From positions 1 to 41,990 of the forward strand of contig JAEEIT010000123.1 in assembly GCA_016281535.1 (NCBI GenBank): a DNA stretch of 41,990 bases, given 5' to 3'. This document shows positions 734 through 30,927 of the stretch, piece after piece; within the stretch, counting starts at the first letter, position 1, and the number at the start of each line of letters is the position of its first letter. Made by a program: the position numbers and the translations under genes. The stretch comes from Clostridia bacterium. GTDB taxonomy: Bacteria; Bacillota; Clostridia; Saccharofermentanales; Saccharofermentanaceae. The notes under the pieces are model-generated. The model searched no databases. It saw only the letters and a program-made list of their open reading frames with translations, and had not been told where the DNA came from.

Positions 734-1972
734 TCAAAGGGCGATCTCACGAACACCGGCATTTGTGACGACACAAACATTCTTCGTGCCGAAGAATGAC
801 ACTCGCAAGACAGGCTCATCTACATTGATCGTAGAACTGATCCGGCAGGAAGAAAGATCGACAAGAAGGATCGTTTCATCCACGGCGATCAGCGCCTTTG
901 ACCCGGAAACCGCGAAACTCAGGACCTCATTTCCAAGCGCAACATCACCGATTTTACTTCCATTAGACCGGAAGGTAGAAAGCTGCAACGGCTGGTCGAT
1001 GCCGTCCGAATAAATAACTGCATATCCTCCGTCGTAAGAGAAAATACTGGTTACGCAGTCAAATGGCGGCTGAACCAGTTCACAAGTACCATTTCCGACC
1101 ACCGCTACATCACTGATTCCTGCCACAGCCACCTTATCAGACCCCATGTAGGCCAGAAGCGGCATGACATCAAAGACGACGGGAGAATAGAATGCAAATT
1201 CAGAAGGACGTGCAGTCGTCCGGTCCTTCGGGATGGAGAATTGCTTCACATGTGGAATCATCTGGGATCCATCCGTATCCACCAAAGAAATGCTGAGTGT
1301 ACTCTCATCCGGCGCGAACGCCAGCGAAAGAGGATAACCGGATTCATAGGATGACCACTTCGCCAGGAACGTTCCGTCCTTTTCCATCATATAGACGCAG
1401 CCGAACGAATCCCCTTCATCAATGATCAACGCGGAAAGCCCGGACGGAGCCAGCGCGAAACCACCGATCTTACCGGTCATGTGCGATTTAAAGACAAGCC
1501 CGTTTTCAGAGAACAGGGCGCAAAGGAAACCTTCCGTATCGGCAACCATAGCATAAGGACCACACTGGATACAGACAGGACTGCTCATCTCGAGATCCTC
1601 GCCGAATACTTCATTTCCGGAAATAGACAGATACGCCACACGTTTCGTCGTCACTTTAAGAAGACCATTCTGAAACGGATACAGCTGCTGTGCTTCCGTA
1701 TATTCACAGTCAAATCCGGCAATTGCGGACAGACGCAGCTGTTCTCTTACACCCTTCTTCGCATCGAAATGATTACGGATCATATAAACAAGAATAATCG
1801 TGACAGCCGCAAGCAGAACACAAAGAATGACCAGGAACGGTGTAGCATACCGCTGGCTTATCTTTACCTTTGTGTCTTTCTGCAGAACCGTCTCCTCATT
1901 CACCTCAGGTTTCTTCCTGTTCTGAACCGGACGCTGCCTGTTCTCGTCGTTTCTGTTTATATTTTCCGGCAT
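734..1972 (-). CDS. membrane-anchored beta-propeller-like protein, DUF5711-like
   Basis: 412 residues. A charged, disordered 40-residue N-terminus precedes one membrane span (about 44-65) and a long extracytoplasmic part built of repeating short beta segments (for example GFALAPSGLSALIID, LSLAFAPDESTLSISLVD, SFAVSGSKALIAVDE), which reads like WD/PQQ-type propeller blades. This matches my memory of DUF5711 proteins of Clostridia, whose function is unknown. It sits 14 bases after the DUF4340 gene and 19 before the CYTH gene, within one operon with the ABC exporter, so an extracytoplasmic accessory role is possible but only inferred. Confidence 0.65.
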   Translation of the reverse strand: MPENINRNDENRQRPVQNRKKPEVNEETVLQKDTKVKISQRYATPFLVILCVLLAAVTIILVYMIRNHFDAKKGVREQLRLSAIAGFDCEYTEAQQLYPFQNGLLKVTTKRVAYLSISGNEVFGEDLEMSSPVCIQCGPYAMVADTEGFLCALFSENGLVFKSHMTGKIGGFALAPSGLSALIIDEGDSFGCVYMMEKDGTFLAKWSSYESGYPLSLAFAPDESTLSISLVDTDGSQMIPHVKQFSIPKDRTTARPSEFAFYSPVVFDVMPLLAYMGSDKVAVAGISDVAVVGNGTCELVQPPFDCVTSIFSYDGGYAVIYSDGIDQPLQLSTFRSNGSKIGDVALGNEVLSFAVSGSKALIAVDETILLVDLSSCRISSTINVDEPVLRVSFFGTKNVCVVTNAGVREIAL

Positions 1973-1986
1973 ACGCTCAAACTTTC

Positions 1987-3465
1987 TTACGGTCTATTAT
2001 ACACATCATTCGTGTTCTTATTGTCGATCGCCTCATTGGCAAGAAGATATGCATCCCATACGCCGAACCCCGACATATTGTGACCGTTATCTTTATATAA
2101 TACGCTTCTATCTACAATAAATCCACTATAAGAGTCATTGAGGAAGCAATAGTATTCCGAATCTCCACATGGAACCAGCTTCAGGACTATACTCTCACTG
2201 TTGGTCTTCACCACCGAGATCGTCGCTTCCACATCGGCAAGTGCCGGCTTCACGTCATAGTCGACACGGCTGACAGGCATATTGAAGATCGATCCGAACA
2301 GCAAAAGCCCGTAGCAGTCGCCCTCAGATGTGTACACCTTTGCATTACGCTTATCAAGCGTGAAGACCGTATCATCAAGAGCAAAATCAGTTCCCATCAT
2401 GATCTCGATCGTAAAGGTCTTCTCCTTCATCGTCACATTTACCGAACGGACATCATTTAGATACCCGTGGATCACATACGAATCGATCATATCAAATGGT
2501 GAACGGTTCAGCCCCGGAAGAACACCCGGATTGACACAGAAAGTATAGGGGTTATTCGAGCTGTATCCATAGTAATAGCCGCCGAATTCAGCAGAAAGAT
2601 ACAGTTTGACCTCTTCTCCGTTCTTCATCCTGATCGTAAAAGTATACTCCGGATCATCCAATCCGTAAGATGCGTAATCCTCCTGCGAAATCGGAATATA
2701 CTGAGCCACATTCAGATTCAGAATCGTATTTCCTAATGAGATCAGTTCACTGTTCGGTTCTCTTTCCATCGGATAGGTCACCTTATAACGCTGTTCAAGG
2801 AAATACCCGTTATCATAGTCCTCCAGAAATACAAGCGTCCATGCATCCCCGTTCGATTTTCTGTAAAAATCGATCTTGTCCACATCGGTACGGTTCAGAT
2901 TCAGGACCATACGGCTGATATACGTCTCGAAATCAGAAGAGACACGCTTGTACATGGAATACTCCGCCATCATAACATGTGTCTGTCCCGCTTCACAGAT
3001 ATACACGCTATTTCTATTCGAATTCAGATTTCCGACCAGAAGAGTCTTCTGCGTGCCATCAGAGAGCGCAACAGTAACAGTATACTGTGCCGGTGAAAGG
3101 CCATAACTTCCAAGCTCTGAAGAAGAAACATCAAATTGGTTTCCCAGAGACACCGTCGTGACATGGTACAGAAGATCAAAGATCTCAGAAGATTCCAGCT
3201 GTCCCGAAATGAAATCCTTACCATCATGGGAAGCGGATTCCACCCCACTCGTTGTACCGAACCGGAATACAGTCTCCTCACCACTGCTTTCCTTGATGGA
3301 CAGCATACGGACATTCTCTGTTGCACAGAGTGTAAAAGTATTGTTCTCCTCTTCCTCTCTCAGGCGCTTACGATCGACACACCGGGATACCAGCACCACG
3401 ATCAATGCCACAAGCAGAACAAGAAGTATAGCAGAAAGAAAGCCGATCTTGCGAAGGTTCTTCAT
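1987..3465 (-). CDS. DUF4340 domain-containing anchored protein
   Basis: About 492 residues with one N-terminal membrane span (about 6-28, rich in L/V/I) and a long extracytoplasmic region in two similar halves, each with the 'LxxYGLxxPxYTVTV' type segment (SSELGSYGLSPAQYTVTVAL and DYASYGLDDPEYTFTIRM). That repeat is typical of DUF4340, which regularly sits beside GldF/GldG-type ABC genes. The ATG at 3465 is chosen over one 45 bases upstream because it has GGAGG just upstream and does not overlap the preceding gene; the spacing of 4 bases is short. Likely a subunit or partner of the exporter encoded upstream; substrate unknown. Confidence 0.75.
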   Translation of the reverse strand: MKNLRKIGFLSAILLVLLVALIVVLVSRCVDRKRLREEEENNTFTLCATENVRMLSIKESSGEETVFRFGTTSGVESASHDGKDFISGQLESSEIFDLLYHVTTVSLGNQFDVSSSELGSYGLSPAQYTVTVALSDGTQKTLLVGNLNSNRNSVYICEAGQTHVMMAEYSMYKRVSSDFETYISRMVLNLNRTDVDKIDFYRKSNGDAWTLVFLEDYDNGYFLEQRYKVTYPMEREPNSELISLGNTILNLNVAQYIPISQEDYASYGLDDPEYTFTIRMKNGEEVKLYLSAEFGGYYYGYSSNNPYTFCVNPGVLPGLNRSPFDMIDSYVIHGYLNDVRSVNVTMKEKTFTIEIMMGTDFALDDTVFTLDKRNAKVYTSEGDCYGLLLFGSIFNMPVSRVDYDVKPALADVEATISVVKTNSESIVLKLVPCGDSEYYCFLNDSYSGFIVDRSVLYKDNGHNMSGFGVWDAYLLANEAIDNKNTNDVYNRP

Positions 3466-7577: not shown

Positions 7578-8153
7578 TTAGGACTCTTCCTTACCTTTTA
7601 CTTTCGCCGCCGGACGATACATGGTATTTCTCGGATTCAGCCGGAAAAAGATATTCAGCATCTTCTCATCCGGTTCGATAAACAGAATCACCTTCTGCTT
7701 TCCGATCTTCGTGGAGATATACCATTCTTCAGACGGGTTATCTCCGGAAACACAATAACCATGCACGGTATCGCCTTTATCGAATTCAGAGAGCGGATGT
7801 CTGGAGTCATCTTTCTTCGCAACCATTTCGAACTGCCGGATCGAACCGGAGTAGAGCTGCGAACGGCGGGATTTCGCACGTATAACATCAATGGAAAAAT
7901 CATCATTTACAATACTGTACTCATATTCTTTCTCCATTCCGGTGATAAAGTAATAACAGGCAAATGCTATTCCGAAGGCAATGGCACCGGACAGAAGGAA
8001 AAGGTACGTGATTCCGAAAAGAAGCGGAAGAACGATAACGAAAGCGATGCCGATCACCGCGAGAATGATCAGAAGCACCTTACAGATCTTCTCTTTCGTT
8101 GTGATCTTCTTCTTGACGATACGCTCGGTTACCGAATCATTGTATAATTGCAT
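7578..8153 (-). CDS. small membrane protein of unknown function (DUF6106-like)
   Basis: 191 residues. A short basic N-terminus (RIVKKKITTKEKI) leads into two adjacent membrane spans (about 25-68), followed by a cytoplasmic domain of beta strands (EYEYSIVNDDFSIDVI, EWYISTKIGKQKVILFIEP) and a basic tail. It resembles the DUF6106 type of small Firmicutes membrane proteins, but that is from memory. The start has AGGAGA 8 bases upstream. The groEL terminator stands immediately upstream, so transcription comes either from read-through or from a promoter inside the groEL end; I see no clear promoter boxes in the 20 bases available. Confidence 0.6.
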   Translation of the reverse strand: MQLYNDSVTERIVKKKITTKEKICKVLLIILAVIGIAFVIVLPLLFGITYLFLLSGAIAFGIAFACYYFITGMEKEYEYSIVNDDFSIDVIRAKSRRSQLYSGSIRQFEMVAKKDDSRHPLSEFDKGDTVHGYCVSGDNPSEEWYISTKIGKQKVILFIEPDEKMLNIFFRLNPRNTMYRPAAKVKGKEES

Positions 8154-8170
8154 ATTTCATCTCTCCTAAC

Positions 8171-8206
8171 AAAAACAGGGGTCATGGCTTTCTGCCATGA
8201 CCCCTC
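8171..8206 (-). terminator. intrinsic terminator of groES-groEL
   Basis: A stem of 12 base pairs (arms 8177-8188 and 8194-8205, loop of 5) followed on the minus strand by GTTTTTGTT. It stands 24 bases after the groEL stop. Confidence 0.85.
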
Positions 8207-8229
8207 TATTTTATCAGAAATACTGACGA

Positions 8230-10162
<1,933 letters not shown>

Positions 10163-22475: not shown

Positions 22476-23648
22476 TCAGATACGAGCTACGCCGCTCTTT
22501 CTTGCAGCCTCAGCAACTGCAGCAGCAACAGCCTTACCAACGCGCGGATCAAATGCATCCGGGAGAATGTACTCAGGATTGAGTTCTTCGTCAGAAACAA
22601 CACCTGCGATAGCGTTCGCCGCAGCGATCTTCATCTCATCGTTGATATCGGAAGCACGTACATCAAGGGCACCACGGAAGATACCCGGGAAAGCAAGTAC
22701 GTTGTTTACCTGGTTCGGGAAGTCGGAACGGCCTGTAGCCATAACCGCAACGCCGGCCTTCTTTGCCTCATCCGGCAGGATCTCCGGTACAGGGTTCGCG
22801 CAAGCAAATACGATCGGATCCTTCGCCATGGTAGCTACCATCTCAGCAGTCAGTACGCCCGGAGCAGAAACACCGATGAATACGTCTGCGCCAACGATGA
22901 CATCCTTGAGGGAACCCTTCTTCATCTTCTGGTTGGTGATGGCAGCGATCTCTTCCTTAGCAGAGTTGAGCTTCTCACGTCCCTGGTAGATCGCACCTGT
23001 TCTGTCGCAGAGGACTACGTCCTTCAGACCACGGGAAATAAGGAGCTTCGTGATAGCCGTAGCTGCAGCACCGGCACCGTTAACAACAACAGAGATCTCT
23101 TCGATCTTCTTGCCAACGATCTTCAGAGCGTTGGTAAGACCAGCCAGAGTGATAACAGCTGTACCGTGCTGGTCATCGTGGAAAATCGGGATATCACATC
23201 TTTCCTTCAACTTCTTCTCGATTTCGAAACATCTCGGAGCGGAGATATCCTCCAGGTTTACGCCGCCAAAGGAACCGGCCAGGAGTGCGACGGTGTTCAC
23301 GATGTCATCCACTTCCTTGGAACGGATGCACAGCGGGAAAGCATCTACATCGCCGAAAGCCTTAAACAGCGCGCACTTACCTTCCATAACCGGCATACCT
23401 GCTTCCGGTCCGATATCACCCAGACCAAGAACAGCCGTCCCGTCTGTGACAACAGCTACGAGGTTATGACGACGTGTATATTTGTAGGAGAGATCGACAT
23501 CTTTGGAGATCTCGAGACACGGCTCAGCAACACCCGGTGTATATGCAACAGAAAGATCGTGCTTGGAAGCTACAGGAGCACGTGTGATGACTTCGATTTT
23601 ACCCTGCCATTCGGTATGCTTAAGAATGGCTTCTTCTTTAATATCCAT
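22476..23648 (-). CDS. malic enzyme (oxaloacetate-decarboxylating malate dehydrogenase)
   Basis: 390 residues, the short prokaryotic MaeB-type without a phosphotransacetylase tail. It has the signature SVAYTPGVAEPCLEI, the metal/substrate segment GLGDIGPEAGMPVMEGK, FHDDQHGTAVI with the catalytic Asp pair and the NAD(P) motif NGAGAAATA. It converts malate to pyruvate and CO2 while reducing NAD(P). Start has GGAGG 9 bases upstream and a clear promoter above. It is monocistronic. Confidence 0.95.
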   Translation of the reverse strand: MDIKEEAILKHTEWQGKIEVITRAPVASKHDLSVAYTPGVAEPCLEISKDVDLSYKYTRRHNLVAVVTDGTAVLGLGDIGPEAGMPVMEGKCALFKAFGDVDAFPLCIRSKEVDDIVNTVALLAGSFGGVNLEDISAPRCFEIEKKLKERCDIPIFHDDQHGTAVITLAGLTNALKIVGKKIEEISVVVNGAGAAATAITKLLISRGLKDVVLCDRTGAIYQGREKLNSAKEEIAAITNQKMKKGSLKDVIVGADVFIGVSAPGVLTAEMVATMAKDPIVFACANPVPEILPDEAKKAGVAVMATGRSDFPNQVNNVLAFPGIFRGALDVRASDINDEMKIAAANAIAGVVSDEELNPEYILPDAFDPRVGKAVAAAVAEAARKSGVARI

Positions 23649-23691
23649 AAGTTCAATCCTCCACAGTATGTTTTAATAATTAAACATAACA

Positions 23692-23720
23692 ATAATAGGC
23701 AAACCGATGGGAAATTTCAA
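23692..23720 (-). promoter_or_regulatory. sigma-A promoter of malic enzyme
   Basis: Minus strand TTGAAA, 17 bases, TATTAT (each 5 of 6), about 45 bases upstream of the start codon. Confidence 0.75.
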
Positions 23721-23797
23721 TTCATGAAATAACCAAAGATACCTATTAAATAAATCAGAATGAATGCATATTGCCAAATGAAGGCGGAAAATGAAAA

Positions 23798-24544
23798 TTA
23801 TTCGTTCTCAAGAACCGTAACCATATGATAGCGGGCGCCCATATTACGGAAAGCAACCAGAACGAAATATGCGCGTAGGAAACCTTCCACCAGATACAGC
23901 CCGACTGACCCTTCGCTTAATACGAACATAACCAGAAGATGCAGAAGGACATAGATCAGGAGTATTCCGGACAATTCCACGAAAATGGATAAGCGGTGTC
24001 CTCGGGTCCGAAGAGAACTCAGCAGAGTCGATGTATAGGCATCCTTCTTCTCGAAAAAGACAAGACCCGGGCGTAAGTAGAAAGACGGGATAAAGAACAG
24101 AAATGCGAAGGGCAGGAAGCCGATCAACAGCAGGGCCGGAATACATATCGACGCTGAATACAGGACCAGCCACCAGATCCTGGTGAAGAAGATCCCGGGA
24201 GCCTTAGAAATTGATACATTTCGGAGATCACAGCCATACATCGTAAAATAAAACAGGCCGATCAGGTACATGACCGAAATATATACGCCAACAGAAAGCA
24301 TATAGACCATATTATCGATCGTGAAGGCCTTCTCGAAAGGATTTGCCTCAACGAACGAAATATAATCCTCAGCCTCCATCATATCCTCATACCAGTACAT
24401 GAACTGTGAGAAGTCAGGATCTCCGGGAGGATACTTCAGGAACCAAAAAGAAACTCCCCATGCAAAAAGGAGGAGCAGCACGGCTGCCCACCTTTTGCTG
24501 AGAGAGTCAATTTGAAACGATTGAAATGGTTTCGAGAGGATCAT
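23798..24544 (-). CDS. polytopic membrane protein of unknown function
   Basis: 248 residues with about five or six hydrophobic spans (for example VLLLLFAWGVSFWFL, YISVMYLIGLFYFTMYG, FLPFAFLFFIPSFYL, ILLIYVLLHLLVMFVL) and a helix with LLSSLRTRGHR near the middle. It resembles DUF975-like membrane proteins only in general shape. It starts 21 bases downstream of the 2Fe-2S ferredoxin gene with GAGGT before the ATG, so it may be the last gene of the redox cluster, although its relation to it is unclear. Confidence 0.55.
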   Translation of the reverse strand: MILSKPFQSFQIDSLSKRWAAVLLLLFAWGVSFWFLKYPPGDPDFSQFMYWYEDMMEAEDYISFVEANPFEKAFTIDNMVYMLSVGVYISVMYLIGLFYFTMYGCDLRNVSISKAPGIFFTRIWWLVLYSASICIPALLLIGFLPFAFLFFIPSFYLRPGLVFFEKKDAYTSTLLSSLRTRGHRLSIFVELSGILLIYVLLHLLVMFVLSEGSVGLYLVEGFLRAYFVLVAFRNMGARYHMVTVLENE

Positions 24545-24565
24545 GATTACCTCTGCGACCCGATA

Positions 24566-24931
24566 TTAAAGATTCGCTGTAGCGATCGTCAGATCTTCGC
24601 AAACCTGACCATTGACGATGTGCTCGGCAACCATACGCTTCGCCTTATTCGGATCCATCTTAATATATGTTACCTTGGAGCCATCCGCATCGATTACTTC
24701 TACGATCGGCTCATACTTGCAAAGGCCGATGCAGCCTGTCATCGTAACAGCAACATCCTCGATACCGCGGGTCTTCAGTTCTTCAACGATCGCAGTCATG
24801 ACCGGACGTGCACCGGCTGCGATACCGCAGGTAGCCATACCGACTACGATACGCTTACCGGCTTCGGATCTTGCGGACATGTCGGACTTTGCCTTGTTCT
24901 TGATTGCTTCGAGTTCTGCTAATGATTTCAT
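24566..24931 (-). CDS. (2Fe-2S) ferredoxin-like protein, NuoE/thioredoxin fold
   Basis: 121 residues starting MKSLAELEAIKNKAKS. The start at 24931 has GGAGG 9 bases upstream. It has the thioredoxin-like ferredoxin pattern: Cys35 in GMATCGIAAGA and Cys67/Cys71 in TGCIGLC; Cys111 near the end is not in a typical place. Canonical four-cysteine ferredoxins of this fold have a second Cys in the first pair, which I do not see here. In Clostridia such genes lie beside the histidine-kinase-like gene and hydrogenase genes hydB/hydA. Here it starts 2 bases after the ATPase stop, but no hydB/hydA follows. Confidence 0.85.
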   Translation of the reverse strand: MKSLAELEAIKNKAKSDMSARSEAGKRIVVGMATCGIAAGARPVMTAIVEELKTRGIEDVAVTMTGCIGLCKYEPIVEVIDADGSKVTYIKMDPNKAKRMVAEHIVNGQVCEDLTIATANL

Positions 24932-24933
24932 AC

Positions 24934-25500
24934 TTATAAACCTCCAAGTATTAATTCTTGTTGTTCGCGATAATAGTCGCACAAGAACAGATAGATCTCC
25001 GGTTCCTGTAGTGACATGCCATCGAGCTTCTCCTTGATCTCTCTGGTATCGATCACAGCCTTTCCCTTCACATCGTGCTCGAAGATCACCACGAAATCGC
25101 AGGTCTTCTCACAAGAGCCGACAAGTGCTGCCAGTGATTCTCCGACGTCTCCCAACGGAAGACAATCGATTGATGAAGGCACCAGCTCTGCAATGACCTT
25201 CGTCCCTTCACCGAGTTTACTCTGGATCTCCAGGCTGCCGCCTGTCAATTCACAAAGCTCCTTCAGAAGCGGAAGACCCAGTCCGACCTTGCGGGTACTT
25301 CTTGTCGTTGCGAAGGGATCTGTCACCCGTGAAACGAATTCCTCACTCATCCCGCATCCGTTATCGATAAACTCGATAATCAGCCGGTCTTCTTTCGATA
25401 TCATGTTGATCCGAAGAGTAACCAGTGATGCTCCGGCTCTCGTCGAGTTCGTCAGGATATCCAGAATATGAAGTGATAATTCTCTCAAGCAACTCCCCAT
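24934..25500 (-). CDS. histidine-kinase-type (GHKL) ATP-binding protein
   Basis: 188 residues with only the ATP-binding domain of a histidine kinase: N-box HILDILTNSTRAGA, G1 box DNGCGM, G2 box VGLGLPLLKELCELTGG, then a C-terminal part (about 110-188) of unclear fold. There is no dimerisation/phosphoacceptor domain. Relatives sit in hydrogenase gene clusters of Clostridia. The start is uncertain: the ATG at 25500 has GGAG only one base upstream; a TTG four codons later (25488) has GGGGAG at better spacing and is close to the usual 'RELSLHILDI' start of relatives. Confidence 0.82.
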   Translation of the reverse strand: MGSCLRELSLHILDILTNSTRAGASLVTLRINMISKEDRLIIEFIDNGCGMSEEFVSRVTDPFATTRSTRKVGLGLPLLKELCELTGGSLEIQSKLGEGTKVIAELVPSSIDCLPLGDVGESLAALVGSCEKTCDFVVIFEHDVKGKAVIDTREIKEKLDGMSLQEPEIYLFLCDYYREQQELILGGL

Positions 25501-25562
25501 TCTCCGGTCACATACGGCCGGAAAAGCACTTCAGATCTCTATTTGTTATTGTCAACTCGTAT

Positions 25563-25592
25563 ATTATATCACTTTCTCATCAGATCCCGCAA
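25563..25592 (-). promoter_or_regulatory. internal promoter before the GHKL ATPase and ferredoxin genes
   Basis: Minus strand TTGCGG, 18 bases, TATAAT, with the -35 inside the end of the PHP gene. It would allow separate expression of the distal genes of the redox cluster. Confidence 0.5.
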
Positions 25593-26327
25593 TGCATTTA
25601 CGAAGCACTCCGCATCAAGATCCGGACTTTTTTCCAAAGGAAGCTTCAGTGAGTAACCCGGATCAGCGATATCCGGAAGCTGATGGGCATCCGAGTCAAC
25701 GATATAATGATAGGAAGAAAGCTCCGGATGCTTATCCCAGAAATCCGGGAGATTGCATCTGCGGCTCACTTCAAGAAGCCTACCCTTCCACTCCGGGGGA
25801 ACAGTGCCAAGAGATGCCACCATGCTGTATGAATCCTTATCGATATGTGCAGGGATCGCCGCCGCCCCCATACTGTCGAGTTTCTCGAACAGTTCGATCA
25901 TAGACACATCCGAGCCCGTAGAAAGCAGATATTCCAATTCCTCCACAACCTCATCATCGTCATTCATGACATACTGATTTCCGAAGATCTCCACACGGTT
26001 CTTGATCTTCGGGCGGTGAGCTGTCCAGAACTCCTCGAATTCCAGTGCTTTTTCCAAAGAGGGAAAAAGACCGAGTACATGGAAACCTTCGGCCACTTCG
26101 ACCTCCATACCGGGAATAACGAGCGGAGCCTTCCCATGTTCTTTCTTAAGGAATTCGGCACATTTCATCGCAGCGCCACAATTCCTCGCCGAACAGTGAT
26201 CCGTGATTGCGATCACATCCAGACCATTCAGAAGCGCCATCGAAACCATATTACCCGGCGTCATATCGTTCTCGGCACAGGGCGATACGGCAGAATGCAT
26301 ATGCAGATCACATACGAAAATGGACAT
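25569..26327 (-). CDS. PHP domain metal-dependent phosphoesterase
   Basis: 252 residues. The metal-binding motifs of the PHP fold are present in order: DLHMHS (7-12), ITDHCSARN, PGMEVEV, AIPAHIDKDS and VDSDAHQLPD. PHP enzymes hydrolyse phosphoesters (nucleotides or histidinol phosphate); the substrate here is unknown. This one lies 11 bases after the second DRTGG gene in the hydrogenase-like cluster, a neighbourhood common in Clostridia. A signalling nucleotide or phosphate could be its substrate; this is inference. Confidence 0.88.
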   Translation of the reverse strand: MSIFVCDLHMHSAVSPCAENDMTPGNMVSMALLNGLDVIAITDHCSARNCGAAMKCAEFLKKEHGKAPLVIPGMEVEVAEGFHVLGLFPSLEKALEFEEFWTAHRPKIKNRVEIFGNQYVMNDDDEVVEELEYLLSTGSDVSMIELFEKLDSMGAAAIPAHIDKDSYSMVASLGTVPPEWKGRLLEVSRRCNLPDFWDKHPELSSYHYIVDSDAHQLPDIADPGYSLKLPLEKSPDLDAECFVNALRDLMRK

Positions 26328-26338
26328 ATCCGGTTCGA

Positions 26339-26695
26339 TCAGGCCTCCATCGTTTCCAGGATCCCGCTAAGCACAGCACAGGCAGCGTATGTATCCAGTT
26401 CGGTGCTGCACACGCAGATCTCTTCGGACTTTGCTCTCTCAAGGACCGATTCCTGCAGCGACACGCCTTCCGTCAGGATGACGAGAGGGCACTCGTTTAA
26501 TGACGCAACCGCAATAACGTTTACGCTGTTCAGGATCGTAAACCAGCATTCATTATTCTGAAGATGGGCCATGACATGACTTAACATATCACCTGCATAT
26601 CCCTTCGAAATCACGGCATCCGGCTGAAACACTTCAGTCAGCACGCTAAGTCCCATTGCTTCAATTATCTCAGAAACTGTCTTCATATCCTTCAT
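26339..26695 (-). CDS. DRTGG domain protein (copy 2)
   Basis: 118 residues, a single DRTGG-type domain (MKTVSEIIEAMGLSVLTEV, KGYAGDMLSHVMAHLQNNEC, VNVIAVASLNECPLVIL). The domain is related to the N-terminus of HPr-kinase-like and CBS-linked regulators and its ligand is unknown. The ATG overlaps the hydrogenase-like stop as ATGA, with a second ATG three codons later that has AAGGA 9 bases upstream and may be the real start. A paralogue lies at 28447-28803. Confidence 0.82.
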   Translation of the reverse strand: MKDMKTVSEIIEAMGLSVLTEVFQPDAVISKGYAGDMLSHVMAHLQNNECWFTILNSVNVIAVASLNECPLVILTEGVSLQESVLERAKSEEICVCSTELDTYAACAVLSGILETMEA

Positions 26696-28017
26696 TCCTT
26701 ACTGATTCTTTTCTGGCGGATAATACAATTATTGATACTCGCTCTTCCCTGCACGATGTCCTCGGCCATGGCGGCGCAGGAAGGCGCCCCGCAGGCACCA
26801 CAGTCAAGCTGCGGAAGTGTCGCAAGGATCTCATCGATCTGCTCATATTTCGTCATCGCCTCACCGATGTTCTCAGAAAGCCGCATCGCATGGTTCTCCG
26901 GAAGCGGGAGTTCCCAGACCTGCGGGATGATATCCTCTTCATGTACGATCAGCTGCGGGAAAAGCTGCTTCTCCAGATAGAAATCGTGGACATGCTCACG
27001 CAGTTTCGCATGCGCCGCGAAACGGTTCATTACCGTAAGAGGACCACCTATACATCCTCCGAAGCAGCATGTCGCCTCAACATAATCGATCTTCTTGATA
27101 TTGTCGCGATCCAGTTCCTCAAGAATGTCGATAACATTCTCGATACCGTCCACAGAAAGGAAATTCTCGATCCTCATACCGGTCGTCTCCCCTCCGATCG
27201 CGGCACAGCGGAGTCCATCCGGATCCGAGATACGAATCGCGCGTTCCTCTTCATGCGTCAGCGTATCGTGATGCTTGATCTTGTCAAGGAGCTTACGAAG
27301 CTGCGGGTACACATCGTGGGTACCCACACATGTCGAGATCAGGGATTGTTTCTTCCATAGCGGGTTGATCACCGAGGTAACCTTCGCCGGGCACGGAGAA
27401 ATGTAGCACAGATAAATGAGTGATTTACGGATCTGAAGCTTCTGACAGAGATAATCGATGGCATACTGTGCAGTAAGTTCCATCGGTGAATCCAGTGTCA
27501 CAAGGTGTGAGATCAGCGCACGATACTTCATCTGTATCAGACGCACCACAACCGGACAGGTGGTGCTGATCATCGGAAAGATCTCGCTTCGTTCATCTTC
27601 CGTCATTTCCTCAGCCGCATCATGTTTCTCACGTAACATCTGTCTTGCCGCCGACACATATCCTGAATAACCGATCGATTCGTCGAAAACATAATCAAAA
27701 CCCATCTCACGGACACATTTCATGACATCGATACGGGTCGCACTGTTCTCAAACTGAGAGAAGATGGCAGGGCTTACGATCGCGACCTTCACCTTACCGC
27801 TCGCTGCCGCAAGCCGTTCTTCGAGCGTGTCGGTCACAGCGATCTTCGCGTGATACGGGCAGATTCGGATACATTGTGCACAGTCGATACAGCGGATATC
27901 ATAGATCGTAGCCTTACCGCCGCGCACACGGATCGCCTGCGTCGGACAGCCCTTACTGCAGGTGGTACATCCGACACACAGATCTCCTATCAATGAAACA
28001 CTGTGTAGCTTTTTCAC
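26692..28017 (-). CDS. sensory [FeFe]-hydrogenase-like Fe-S protein
   Basis: 441 residues. Two [4Fe-4S] motifs at the N-terminus (Cys14/17/20/24 and Cys43/46/49/53), an H-cluster domain (about 75-365), and a C-terminal Fe-S motif LDCGACGAPSCAAMAEDIVQ with a later Cys431. The H-cluster cysteines are in place: Cys154 in STTCPVVVRL, Cys209 in SPCPAKV, Cys318/322 in CCFGGC. The first cysteine of the catalytic TSCCP motif, which relays protons, is Thr153, and the Glu of PCxxKxxE is Ser215. That, together with its neighbours, suggests a redox or H2 sensor rather than a hydrogenase producing H2. It starts 10 bases after the RsbW-like gene and is coupled to DRTGG copy 2. Confidence 0.88.
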   Translation of the reverse strand: MKKLHSVSLIGDLCVGCTTCSKGCPTQAIRVRGGKATIYDIRCIDCAQCIRICPYHAKIAVTDTLEERLAAASGKVKVAIVSPAIFSQFENSATRIDVMKCVREMGFDYVFDESIGYSGYVSAARQMLREKHDAAEEMTEDERSEIFPMISTTCPVVVRLIQMKYRALISHLVTLDSPMELTAQYAIDYLCQKLQIRKSLIYLCYISPCPAKVTSVINPLWKKQSLISTCVGTHDVYPQLRKLLDKIKHHDTLTHEEERAIRISDPDGLRCAAIGGETTGMRIENFLSVDGIENVIDILEELDRDNIKKIDYVEATCCFGGCIGGPLTVMNRFAAHAKLREHVHDFYLEKQLFPQLIVHEEDIIPQVWELPLPENHAMRLSENIGEAMTKYEQIDEILATLPQLDCGACGAPSCAAMAEDIVQGRASINNCIIRQKRISKE

Positions 28018-28027
28018 GTTATTCCTC

Positions 28028-28450
28028 TCATGTAAAGTTTACTATCATCGTGACCTTGGTGCCTTCTCCCACCTTCGTGTCGATCCTAAGGTCATCGCAG
28101 TTCTTCTTAATATTCGGAAGACCCATACCGGCGCCGAAACCCATCTCACGGGCAATATCCGGAGCTGTCGACCAGCCTGCCGTCATCGCCTGATCCAGAT
28201 CGGGAATACCGGGACCGTGGTCCTCGATCACGATCACGACTTTATCCGGGTGGACAGTCACCTCTGCCATTCCTCCATGACCATGGATCACGGCATTGAT
28301 CTCTGCCTCATACATAGCGATCGAAGCACGCTTAATGTCTTCTGCCTTCACGCCGAGGCGGGAAAGAGACTTCTTCATCGAGCTGCTCGCTTCCCCCGCA
28401 TGGGTAAAGTCGTTATCTCTTATCTCATATTGGCGTACTAACGGTTCTAT
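28028..28450 (-). CDS. RsbW-like GHKL kinase/anti-sigma regulator, likely ATA start
   Basis: About 140 residues from the ATA at 28450, or 116 from the first ATG at 28378. N-box AMYEAEINAVIHGHGG, G1 box EDHGPGIP and G2 box FGAGMGLPNIKK identify an RsbW/SpoIIAB-type ATP-binding regulator. Between the in-frame TGA and 28378 no ATG, GTG or TTG occurs, but the frame encodes a segment (QYEIRDNDFTHAGEASSS) that I recall as conserved in this family. An ATA at 28450 has AAGGAGG 7 bases upstream and overlaps the previous TAG stop as ATAG. I therefore think translation starts there. Partner anti-anti-sigma and sigma genes are not visible. It is the second gene of the redox cluster. Confidence 0.78.
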   Translation of the reverse strand: MEPLVRQYEIRDNDFTHAGEASSSMKKSLSRLGVKAEDIKRASIAMYEAEINAVIHGHGGMAEVTVHPDKVVIVIEDHGPGIPDLDQAMTAGWSTAPDIAREMGFGAGMGLPNIKKNCDDLRIDTKVGEGTKVTMIVNFT

Positions 28451-28803
28451 AAGGCAGCCTCCTTCCCGCGGAGACCGGCTTCATAAAGAAGTCCGCAGCA
28501 GGTAAACATGGAAAGAGGCGACGTCATCAGACCGATTCCCTTCTCTTCAGCAAGTTTCTGCATCGTCTCGTCCGGAACTTTTCCCCTTACGAAGATGATT
28601 ACTCTTACGTCCAGCATTTCAGCAGTGCGGATCGTCTGAGGATTCACAAGACCTGTAATCATGATCTGGCTGTCATCCGAACTAAATGCCATGACATCAC
28701 TCATAAGATCGGATCCACACGCGATCTTCAGATCTTCCTCAAAACCGTCTGTCTTAACCAGGATCTCGGCGTTCAGAAGTTCTGCACAATCACAAACTTT
28801 CAT
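28447..28803 (-). CDS. DRTGG domain protein (copy 1)
   Basis: 118 residues, start at 28803 with AGGAGG 7 bases upstream. A single DRTGG-type domain: AELLNAEILVKTDGFEEDL, CGSDLMSDVMAFSSDD, MITGLVNPQTIRTAEMLDV, ending with TSPLSMFTCCGLLYEAGL. Ligand unknown. It heads the redox cluster and its TAG stop overlaps the probable ATA start of the RsbW-like gene. Two diverged DRTGG copies within one operon suggest a heterodimer or separate inputs. Confidence 0.82.
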   Translation of the reverse strand: MKVCDCAELLNAEILVKTDGFEEDLKIACGSDLMSDVMAFSSDDSQIMITGLVNPQTIRTAEMLDVRVIIFVRGKVPDETMQKLAEEKGIGLMTSPLSMFTCCGLLYEAGLRGKEAAL

Positions 28804-28919
28804 ATAAAGACCTCCTAAAACATGCGCTATCAGCCACTTAACCACGTCTCATACGTGTCATGACGGATGCGCATCTTACGAACTGTTATGTTAATTATAT
28901 TATTATATAGACAATTACG

Positions 28920-28935
28920 CCACAGAATTTCGTGG
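28920..28935. promoter_or_regulatory. dyad in the divergent promoter region (possible operator)
   Basis: A 16-base interrupted palindrome, CCACnnAATTnnGTGG in form, between the redox cluster and glutamine synthetase. It covers the expected -35 position of a minus-strand TATAAT box at 28902-28907 and lies about 45 bases upstream of the plus-strand -10 box. No known regulator is inferred. Confidence 0.35.
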
Positions 28936-28978
28936 AAATTCTCTATAACACGGCTTAGGTCATATTCGGAAATAATGG

Positions 28979-28984
28979 TATAAT
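28979..28984 (+). promoter_or_regulatory. -10 box of the glutamine synthetase gene
   Basis: TATAAT on the plus strand, about 33 bases before the chosen start codon; no good -35 (TTAGGT at 28955-28960 is the nearest match at 18-base spacing). The position favours the start at 29017 over the ATG at 28999, which would be almost leaderless. Confidence 0.5.
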
Positions 28985-29016
28985 AACGCTGATTTTAGAT
29001 GAAAGGGCCAACTACT

Positions 29017-30927
29017 ATGACCAATTTTCACATTTATCCGAATCTCCTCTACCTTTTACCGCCCAAGACTCATAACATCACCGACCTCGAGCGCACCCTC
29101 GGAGAACACCCCGAGATCAAGTTCGTTTCTTTCGTCGGCATTGATCTGGCCGGTAACGATACAGACGAGAAGATCCCGATCGGGAACTTCATCGACAACC
29201 TTCAGGGCTATCTGAGCGGCTGCGTCGTCCAGACCGACGGTTCATCGGTTGAACTTCCCGGCATCGCCACACTGAATGACGGCCGTGTTGATTTCGAACC
29301 GGACCTGAACGTAATGTGGTTCATCGACTATAACTATGAACACCTCGATCCGGAGAACGGCCTTCCGATCGGTACTCTGAGGATCCCCTCTTTCTTGATT
29401 CATAACGGAGATAAGGTCTGCTCCCGTTCGATCCTGAAGCGCTGCGCTGACCGTTTCGCTTCCGAACTAGAGCGGTATCTCCGCGAGTATCCTTCCCTCT
29501 GTGATGAGCTTGGATTCTCCCTTGAAGATCTCGACCGGATCGAGCTTACCACGGCAACCGAGCTGGAATTCTGGGTCAGTTCTCCGGAAGAAAAGATCAA
29601 CACCCGTGTTCTTTCCACTTCCCAGAGCCTGAAGGAACAATATTGGAAAAGAACGAAAGGCGTCGTCCGTACTGCTCTTGAGCAGGCAGTGATGCTTCTT
29701 GACCTCTATGGTTTTGAGCCGGAAATGGGTCATAAAGAAGTCGGCGGCGTGAAAGCCCATCTTTCGGATGCCGGTGATTTCCATAACATCATGGAACAGC
29801 TCGAGATCGACTGGCATTACTCGAATGCCCTGCAGGCCGCGGACTACGAGCTTCTCGCCCGCATTTTCATTAAAGAGATCTTCCGTATGCACGGTCTCGA
29901 GGTCAGCTTCTGTGCGAAGCCGCTTCCGGGTGTTGCCGGTTCCGGCGAACATACCCATGTCAATGCGGTGGCTTTCCTGAAAGACGGACACAAAGTCAAC
30001 CTCTTCAGCCCGAAGGATATGACTAAGGATTTCCTCGGCACCATCGGCTGGGGTGCACTCATGGGCTTCATGAAGCACTACGAGCTGATCAACCCGTTCA
30101 TTTCCGTAACGACCGATGCATTCCTTCGTCTGCAGCCCGGATACGAAGCGCCGACTCATGCCGTCGCTTCTTTAGGTAAAGATATTCATACACCATCCCG
30201 TAACCGCTCTGTTCTTCTCGGATTGATCCGCAATTCCGACAGTGCCGTACAGACCCGTTTCGAGATCCGTTCCCCTAACCCGCACACTAACACCTACCTG
30301 TGTCTGTCTGCCGCTTACCAGTGCATGCTCGATGGAATTGAGTACGCCGTTACTTCCGGCCATACGACACAGGAACTCGAGAAAGAATTCTGCAAGAACT
30401 ACGGTGAAGATGCCGACTATATGGAGAAAGACCGTATGTATCGCTGCGAGGAAGACATCTTCATCCACTACTCGATCGAAGAAAGAGATAAGCTCTTCGG
30501 AACACCGCCGGCGACAGTCTATGACTCTCTCCGATGCCTGCTGCATGCGGACGACATGATTCCGATCCTCTGTGCGGGTGACGTCTTCTCAGATCAGCTC
30601 ATCTCCTCGTATGCTCACGCCATGCTTGACCGCTGGCAGATGGAACTGTCCGAGAGGATCATCCCTACGAATCTTTCGCTGATCAGAAACATCGTCCCTT
30701 TCCATGACCCGTCCAATAACTACGACGTGGCACTCTGGAAGGAGATCGACTCCATCCGCAACCACCTGGCCAAAGACACTTCCGAATACGTCTCGATCTT
30801 CAAGGAGATCCGTCTGGCCATCGATGCGAAGAATCTTAAGGAACTCAGCAAGCTCCAGCAGAAGATGAATTCGCTCATGAACGAGATGAACAGGCTGTAC
30901 GCGGATTACGGCGCCAACCAGATCTGA
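29017..30927 (+). CDS. large glutamine synthetase family protein
   Basis: 636 residues from the ATG at 29017 (AAAGGG 9 bases upstream). Glutamine synthetase catalytic-domain elements are present: ELTTATELEFWV with the metal-binding glutamates, GSGEHTHVNAVAFLKDG (about 307-323), PTHAVASLGKD, NRSVLLGLIRN and TRFEIRSPNPHTNTYLCLSA. A helical C-terminal extension of about 150 residues follows, ending with a leucine/lysine coiled segment. It is longer than type I enzymes (about 440-470) and differs from type III (about 700). It would make glutamine from glutamate, ammonia and ATP, or act on another amine; family membership is firm, substrate less so. It diverges from the redox cluster and ends at a strong hairpin. 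Confidence 0.88.
   Translation: MTNFHIYPNLLYLLPPKTHNITDLERTLGEHPEIKFVSFVGIDLAGNDTDEKIPIGNFIDNLQGYLSGCVVQTDGSSVELPGIATLNDGRVDFEPDLNVMWFIDYNYEHLDPENGLPIGTLRIPSFLIHNGDKVCSRSILKRCADRFASELERYLREYPSLCDELGFSLEDLDRIELTTATELEFWVSSPEEKINTRVLSTSQSLKEQYWKRTKGVVRTALEQAVMLLDLYGFEPEMGHKEVGGVKAHLSDAGDFHNIMEQLEIDWHYSNALQAADYELLARIFIKEIFRMHGLEVSFCAKPLPGVAGSGEHTHVNAVAFLKDGHKVNLFSPKDMTKDFLGTIGWGALMGFMKHYELINPFISVTTDAFLRLQPGYEAPTHAVASLGKDIHTPSRNRSVLLGLIRNSDSAVQTRFEIRSPNPHTNTYLCLSAAYQCMLDGIEYAVTSGHTTQELEKEFCKNYGEDADYMEKDRMYRCEEDIFIHYSIEERDKLFGTPPATVYDSLRCLLHADDMIPILCAGDVFSDQLISSYAHAMLDRWQMELSERIIPTNLSLIRNIVPFHDPSNNYDVALWKEIDSIRNHLAKDTSEYVSIFKEIRLAIDAKNLKELSKLQQKMNSLMNEMNRLYADYGANQI

Follow-up and report, generated by a model that had tools for sequence, protein, structure and literature searches.

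The locus and its gene content

The window analysed here is a stretch of 41,990 nucleotides (nt), positions 1 to 41,990 of contig JAEEIT010000123.1, from the draft genome of a Clostridia bacterium of the family Saccharofermentanaceae (assembly GCA_016281535.1). Seven genes on its minus strand, running from 28803 to 24566, encode a DRTGG protein (DRTGG1), an RsbW-like kinase, the [FeFe]-hydrogenase-like protein HydS, a second DRTGG protein (DRTGG2), a PHP-family phosphoesterase, a GHKL ATPase and a small ferredoxin-like protein, in agreement with the gene content and order given in a preliminary description of this DNA made from the sequence alone. On balance, we regard the locus as an operon in which a group D HydS is combined with dedicated signalling partners; this hydrogenase, of low turnover, would serve to sense H2 or a low-potential redox state. 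The features are as follows (aa, amino acids).

28447..28803, minus strand: DRTGG1, a stand-alone DRTGG-domain protein of 118 aa by its assignment, first gene of the core
28028..28450, minus strand: RsbW/SpoIIAB-like GHKL kinase (PF13581, 1.1e-12); the start is probably an ATA codon over the DRTGG1 stop
26692..28017, minus strand: HydS, 441 aa, putative sensory [FeFe]-hydrogenase of group D (M2e) type (PF02906, 2.9e-28; PF04060; Fer4)
26339..26695, minus strand: DRTGG2, second DRTGG protein (PF07085, 2.9e-8); 4-nt overlap with HydS
25569..26327, minus strand: PHP-family metal-dependent phosphoesterase (PF02811, 2.3e-7)
24934..25500, minus strand: GHKL ATPase (PF02518, 9.5e-17), of the type preceding hydBA in many related loci
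24566..24931, minus strand: small thioredoxin-fold [2Fe-2S]-ferredoxin-like protein (weak matches to PF01257 and NF041612)
23798..24544, minus strand: membrane protein with about six hydrophobic segments by hydropathy and no family match; it occupies the place of hydB in the taxonomic order of the window

Pfam matches above cut-off comprise HATPase_c_2 in the RsbW-like protein, Fe_hyd_lg_C, FeS and Fer4 in HydS, DRTGG in DRTGG2, PHP, and HATPase_c.

HydS as a putative sensory hydrogenase

The HydS protein of the window combines the hydrogenase domain PF02906 (Fe_hyd_lg_C) with PF04060 (FeS) and Fer4 domains and has two N-terminal [4Fe-4S] motifs. Residues were counted over 107 aligned rows, representing 103 genomes plus four short duplicates (L062, L063, L065 and L066) that were included in these counts and in the residue counts given below for the neighbouring proteins. 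The ferredoxin cysteines C14, C17, C20, C24, C43, C46, C49 and C53 are present in all 107 rows, as are the H-cluster cysteines C154, C209, C318 and C322, which align with the SCCP, PC..K and CxxxC motifs of solved hydrogenases. The C-terminal Cx2Cx4Cx16C motif is also retained (C406, C409 and C414 in 107/107 rows, C431 in 106/107), with the spacing described in the available text of PMC8163306. Two further positions were matched by alignment to solved hydrogenases and the numbering used there: Cys299 corresponds to T153 in the window (Ala in 82/107 rows, Thr in 12/107), and Met353 to S207 (Ser or Thr in 105/107). No PAS domain was detected in the window HydS at a threshold of 0.001, and the protein stops 10 residues past the last cysteine of the FeS motif. 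The predicted model has a predicted local distance difference test (pLDDT) score of 91.4, and all 50 PDB matches listed for it are [FeFe]-hydrogenases.

The published marks of group D (M2e), whose characterised member is TamHydS of Thermoanaerobacter mathranii, are given in the available parts of PMC8163306, PMC6984386 and PMC13104023; one review, in the portion available, files TamHydS under group C (PMC8924675). By these hallmarks, and with TamHydS compared by description, the window HydS is likely a putative sensory [FeFe]-hydrogenase of group D, which supports the earlier view of a sensing-type cluster around a hydrogenase-like protein. A decayed hydrogenase was considered and rejected, since the cofactor cysteines are conserved.

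Two additional cysteines were observed in the window protein. Residue 271 is Cys, as in 10/107 rows, with Trp in 96/107, and Cys317, a position with Cys in 11/107 rows, adjoins the H-cluster ligand Cys318. Both possibly lie near the cofactor.

Conservation of the gene core

Two sets of loci were compared: (i) set A, with 103 loci comprising the window, 20 genomes of its order and 82 other matches of the class, picked for flank length and genus spread, and (ii) set B, the best 80 named loci among the matches listed by a scan; the two sets may share genomes. In 96 of the 103 set A loci, which all come from distinct genomes, the five genes DRTGG1-RsbW-HydS-DRTGG2-PHP form an uninterrupted core on a single strand, and thus the arrangement is beyond chance. 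In set B the core is contiguous in 69/80 loci. The order was not lost in relatives and is kept beyond the taxonomic order of the window.

Distribution was analyzed in a class sample of 393 genomes, for which a completeness of at least 90% was asked and in which the own genome of the window was included. HydS was found in 177 of them (E <= 1e-40) and group A HydA in 329 (E <= 1e-80). Both occur in 169 genomes, HydS alone in 8, HydA alone in 160 and neither in 56. Hence HydA accompanies HydS in 169/177 genomes versus 160/216 HydS-negative ones (Fisher p 2.6e-9, uncorrected for kinship). Within the order of the window, 43/188 genomes encode HydS (E <= 1e-99), the best match of the next genome being 8.5e-25. 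The PHP orthologue (E <= 1e-15) follows this distribution closely: it occurs in 42/188 genomes of the order, namely 42/43 HydS-positive genomes and 0/145 others, and the sole HydS genome lacking it (G179) is 59% complete. The nearest named relatives of the window come from rumen samples.

DRTGG proteins and gene fusions

DRTGG2 belongs to a family in which 21/23 orthologues match PF07085; a PDB sequence search with it gave two matches only, at E about 0.5. DRTGG1 of the window had no Pfam match at 0.001 in one scan and elsewhere scored 18.3 bits against PF07085, below the 25.2 cut-off. Its assignment as a DRTGG-domain protein is nevertheless secured by profile comparison and fold prediction, because (i) 24 of 25 aligned orthologues match PF07085 at E <= 0.01, (ii) the DRTGG1 profile matches DRTGG2 with E 2.9e-23, so that the two proteins are homologous, and (iii) the predicted fold matches the solved DRTGG structures of AF1212 (2ioj, TMq 0.82) and 3l2b. 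Residues D46, S49, D50 and G118, in the numbering of the 132-aa open reading frame (ORF), are conserved at 100% after rounding in 104 rows.

Fusions in one reading frame were found for two pairs of core genes: DRTGG1-RsbW in L219 (Tepidanaerobacter sp. GT38; 8016-8957, plus strand) and HydS-DRTGG2 in L060, which is a draft assembly from the order of the window (1140-3128, plus strand). DRTGG domains can pair with one another. Because of the two fusions and the homology of DRTGG1 and DRTGG2, these comparisons suggest a chain of contacts in which HydS-DRTGG2 and DRTGG1-RsbW would be bridged by the DRTGG pair.

Hydrogenase and rnf genes around and away from the module

Neither hydA nor hydB was found in the cluster or its immediate flanks, and the contig of the window has no other PF02906 match. 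The ferredoxin gene is followed instead by the membrane protein lacking a family match, as described before, and then by a malic enzyme. Besides HydS, a single PF02906 protein is encoded in the genome (80.75% complete); it is a group A hydA, located on contig C157 together with a partial hydB that has an NADH_4Fe-4S domain. The maturase HydF is present as well. Thus, the cluster is not stand-alone in the sense, implied earlier, of a genome without a hydrogenase. Four relatives from the genus (G144, G147, G148 and G149) have hydA and hydS on the same contig, separated by about 236, 270, 245 and 231 kb, respectively; the distance is 86 kb in the family member G053, and three further genus members have the two genes on different contigs. 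Group A HydA matches were obtained in 13 of 16 tested genomes of the order. A contig-edge artefact as the cause of the missing hydBA was rejected, since the contig runs more than 23 kb past the operon and hydA is 231-270 kb off in the relatives with long contigs. The membrane protein takes the same place in 19/103 loci, all of them from the order of the window, and a search of 9 kb around these loci gave no hydB/hydA.

Elsewhere in the class, the ATPase/ferredoxin pair runs into hydB and hydA in many relatives, as had been proposed. Neighbours were labelled as HydB, HydA or HydS with trimmed models, since Fer4 domains are shared. In set A, hydB/hydA lie downstream of the module, on its strand and no more than 9 kb away, in 48/103 loci (in 46 of these the HydB centre is 3.6-4.9 kb from HydS), are located elsewhere within 9 kb in 5/103 and are not within 9 kb in 50/103, some of these loci being cut by contig ends. 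HydA or HydB is near the module in 44/80 loci of set B. Roughly half of the examined genomes therefore have the genes of the bifurcating hydrogenase adjacent to the module, and here they are in trans.

A link to rnf genes was observed occasionally. In two Anaerosolibacter genomes, an RsbW-DRTGG2-PHP-ATPase block (L254:2186-5925 and L255:4517-8240) is followed, after about 300 nt, by an rnfC with RnfC_N and Complex1_51K domains. An rnfC-like ORF occurs in 6/107 set A rows and 1/80 set B loci, with four kinds of position: it follows the module in L098 and L108, is placed more distantly downstream in L140 and L142, lies close to the end of the retrieved locus sequence in L078 and L124, and is far upstream in L153. 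In L222, HydS stands alone, yet the same genome also has another module, which is complete and accompanied by hydBA (L256).

Kinase, phosphoesterase, ATPase and ferredoxin

The residues E24, N28, D53, G55, G57 and T107 of the RsbW-like protein, numbered from the first ATG, are conserved at 100% after rounding in 105 rows, and we take them to fill the roles of the N, G1 and G2 boxes, which are complete. The same level is reached by D7, H9, H11, D43, H44, E75, H83, H161, D213 and H215 of the PHP protein in 101 rows, all of which except D7 are presumably metal ligands, and by N18, D46, G48 and G50 of the GHKL ATPase in 75 rows. Because these residues are conserved, kinase activity of the RsbW-like protein and phosphohydrolase activity of the PHP protein appear plausible. 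A PDB sequence search with the PHP protein gave no matches at 0.01.

The small ferredoxin scores 19.4 bits against PF01257, under the 24.8 cut-off. Three of its cysteines are invariant in 64 rows. Its profile matches 29 HydB-like ORFs, each about 600 aa long, at their N-terminal ends, and by this comparison the ferredoxin is a homologue of the first domain of HydB-like proteins. In 29 loci, a family of thioredoxin-fold ferredoxins resembling HydC is present, often between PHP and ATPase, where the window lacks it; the one member checked matches PF01257 with 5.5e-54.

Gene junctions and regulatory signals

Calculated from the listed starts, the gaps between successive genes are 68, 10, -4, 11, 68 and -49 nt. 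Two of these values, 68 at the DRTGG1/RsbW junction and -49 at the ATPase/ferredoxin junction, are probably start-codon artefacts. The head-to-tail layout of the earlier description holds; the DRTGG1/RsbW junction, listed as a gap of 68 nt, is probably a 4-nt overlap in reality.

Upstream of the conserved N-terminus of the RsbW-like protein there is no in-frame ATG, GTG or TTG. The start is probably the ATA codon at 28450, upstream of the first ATG, as part of an ATAG that overlaps the DRTGG1 stop. This ATAG(AA) sequence (window 28447-28450, minus strand) is found in 41 of 41 loci, namely the window, L013-L036, L042-L052 and L148-L152, which represent 23 distinct sequences from three genera. 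GGAGG is located directly 5' of the site in 39/41 loci, and in one sequence TAA precedes it immediately. AUA start codons are rare, and part of the constraint on ATAG may come from the DRTGG1 stop codon. An ATA start overlapping this stop suggests termination-reinitiation that would limit kinase dosage. For the ferredoxin, comparison of 64 rows places the start probably at Met18 (kept in 89%), at about 24931 and 2 nt past the ATPase stop.

A scan of the window for TTGTTAANNNNTTAACAA, presumably the Rex operator motif, with at most three mismatches gave two matches, a number at chance level, and neither is near the operon. The promoter scan of 23500-29100 gave two sites versus 7.5 expected in shuffles, none of them upstream of DRTGG1.

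A proposed signalling pathway and its alternatives

From the observed gene content, order, conserved residues, co-occurrence, fusions and location of hydBA in trans, we infer an entire pathway, from the signal through each step of the relay to the output: (i) H2 or a reductant would alter HydS, (ii) DRTGG2 would contact HydS and pair with its homologue DRTGG1, (iii) DRTGG1 would contact and control the RsbW-like kinase, (iv) the PHP protein would reset the switch, either by dephosphorylation or by breakdown of a small ligand, and (v) the output would tune ferredoxin- and NAD(H)-linked enzymes, namely the electron-bifurcating hydrogenase and, occasionally, the Rnf complex. A more specific version, which we put forward only tentatively, is a previously unrecognised H2 relay. 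In this relay, HydS would provide the input, a hetero-pair of DRTGG proteins would replace STAS, with DRTGG2 on HydS and DRTGG1 on the RsbW-like kinase, and PHP would reset the system, the whole being reused for the bifurcating hydrogenase, Rnf or unlinked targets.

Several observations speak against the sensor operon with dedicated partners. Relatives are not independent, and a single genus accounts for 21 of the 43 genomes with HydS in the order. Either fusion is known from a single genome and could be a sequencing artefact. HydA without HydS is common (160 genomes), and therefore the enzyme does not require the module; conversely, 8 of the 177 HydS genomes, which are drafts, have no HydA match at E <= 1e-80, and neither do 3 of 10 tested members of the genus (G154, G155 and G156; 92, 84 and 94% complete), so the HydS-HydA link may not be obligate. 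In Anaerosolibacter, DRTGG1-HydS sit apart from RsbW-DRTGG2-PHP, and therefore a single operon is not required. Finally, the other flank of TamHydS is described in the available text as an AraC-family regulator, not a DRTGG gene (PMC8163306).

The preliminary description had proposed that the signal is passed to an RsbW-type partner switch. In its classical form, the RsbW-like protein would hold a sigma factor that a STAS anti-anti-sigma factor frees when HydS signals, and we consider this improbable. It would agree with the complete catalytic boxes of the kinase, which among the NCBIfam models scores highest with SpoIIAB (63.8 bits; the cut-off is 135), and with the Ser/Thr phosphatase reported for related group C systems in the available parts of PMC11837493 and PMC6776011. 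However, no STAS gene is among the 10 window proteins scanned (22476-30927), and the only STAS match found in the 81%-complete genome lies on contig C150 (L003/L244), where the next gene encodes a protein of 675 aa that combines a SpoIIE-type phosphatase with a C-terminal HATPase_c_2 kinase domain; this pair is a separate, self-contained switch. No sigma factor of the same genome exceeds the SigBFG cut-off of 234 bits, the two matches below it scoring 145 and 115 bits, and at this completeness such absence is not proof. The proposed switch is thus poorly supported: its partners amounted to one STAS protein beside another kinase and sigma matches under the cut-off. Taken together, these searches speak weakly against the STAS/sigma route, for which the incomplete draft leaves room.

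Direct post-translational action, with the kinase or ATPase and the small Fe-S proteins setting the activity or assembly of HydABC or Rnf and no transcriptional output, seems to us rather unlikely, if less so than the partner switch. The core has no gene for a DNA-binding protein, its neighbours are often hydrogenase and rarely Rnf subunits, and the small ferredoxin resembles a HydB-like N-terminus, all as such action would have it. In the genus of the window, however, hydA is distant or on another contig, a few drafts contain the module without a HydA match, and the models published for related group C systems favour expression control, as far as the available text of PMC6776011 and PMC10055695 goes. 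That HydS is instead a metabolic hydrogenase with incidental neighbours is very improbable. None of the four H-cluster cysteines is lost, and TamHydS is described as interconverting H+ and H2 (PMC8163306, available part), but its rates are low according to the same text, the proton-transfer position Cys299 is mostly replaced by Ala or Thr, and both the order of the neighbours and the residues are conserved across the class sample. Against these alternatives, the sensor operon with dedicated partners is the reading that we favour.

Comparison with known systems

A group D HydS as a putative H2 sensor has already been published, and the available text of a 2026 study describes its interaction partners as not yet identified and calls the finding of them critical (PMC13104023). 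No open-access full text that we found, in the parts available, joins DRTGG, RsbW or PHP with HydS, by which we do not claim absence from print. Relative to the open-access literature, the new elements are a candidate partner set, comprising the DRTGG-RsbW-HydS-DRTGG-PHP core with its co-occurrence, fusions and occasional Rnf link, and the detachment of the module from hydBA. The module offers four constant partner candidates for group D HydS, with the fusions pointing to two specific contacts, and its location away from hydBA in the lineage of the window separates the sensor from the enzyme. In the rumen, the sampling site of the nearest named relatives of the window, H2 feeds methane formation.

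Among the closest known systems is that of TamHydS, for which the available texts describe low rates, an H2-induced structure change and a position upstream of a bifurcating hydrogenase (PMC8163306, PMC13104023); for group D, a flanking kinase-like ATPase and a downstream bifurcating hydrogenase are likewise reported in the parts available (PMC8163306, PMC3608648). Compared by description, TamHydS and the window HydS share the two N-terminal [4Fe-4S] motifs, the loss of Cys299, the replacement of Met353 by Ser/Thr, the C-terminal Cx2Cx4Cx16C motif and the lack of a PAS domain. They differ in that hydBA does not follow in the window; the other flank of TamHydS is of the AraC family, and DRTGG and PHP go unmentioned in the available description. 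The group C sensory hydrogenases (TmHydS, HydS of R. albus and HfsB) have the same layout of Fe-S and H domains, a proposed role in H2 sensing and other hydrogenase genes nearby. They contain a PAS domain and, in R. albus and Thermoanaerobacterium, have a Ser/Thr phosphatase as a neighbour (PMC11837493, PMC6776011, available parts), whereas the type found in the window is PAS-less and has a kinase and DRTGG/PHP in place of the phosphatase.

As for the other components, the operons of electron-bifurcating HydABC resemble the locus in the GHKL ATPase-ferredoxin pair that precedes hydBA in many related loci; in the window, by contrast, the next gene encodes the membrane protein and hydB/hydA are elsewhere in the genome. 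The RsbW/SpoIIAB kinases are likewise small GHKL kinases with intact catalytic boxes, whereas the kinase of the window lacks a STAS or sigma partner at the locus and its gene overlaps that of a DRTGG protein, the two being joined into a fusion in one other genome. The predicted fold of DRTGG1 is that of AF1212 (2ioj) and of the regulatory regions of CBS/DRTGG pyrophosphatases (3l2b), but the DRTGG proteins of the window are free of CBS and pyrophosphatase domains and form stand-alone units of about 118 aa, two per operon.

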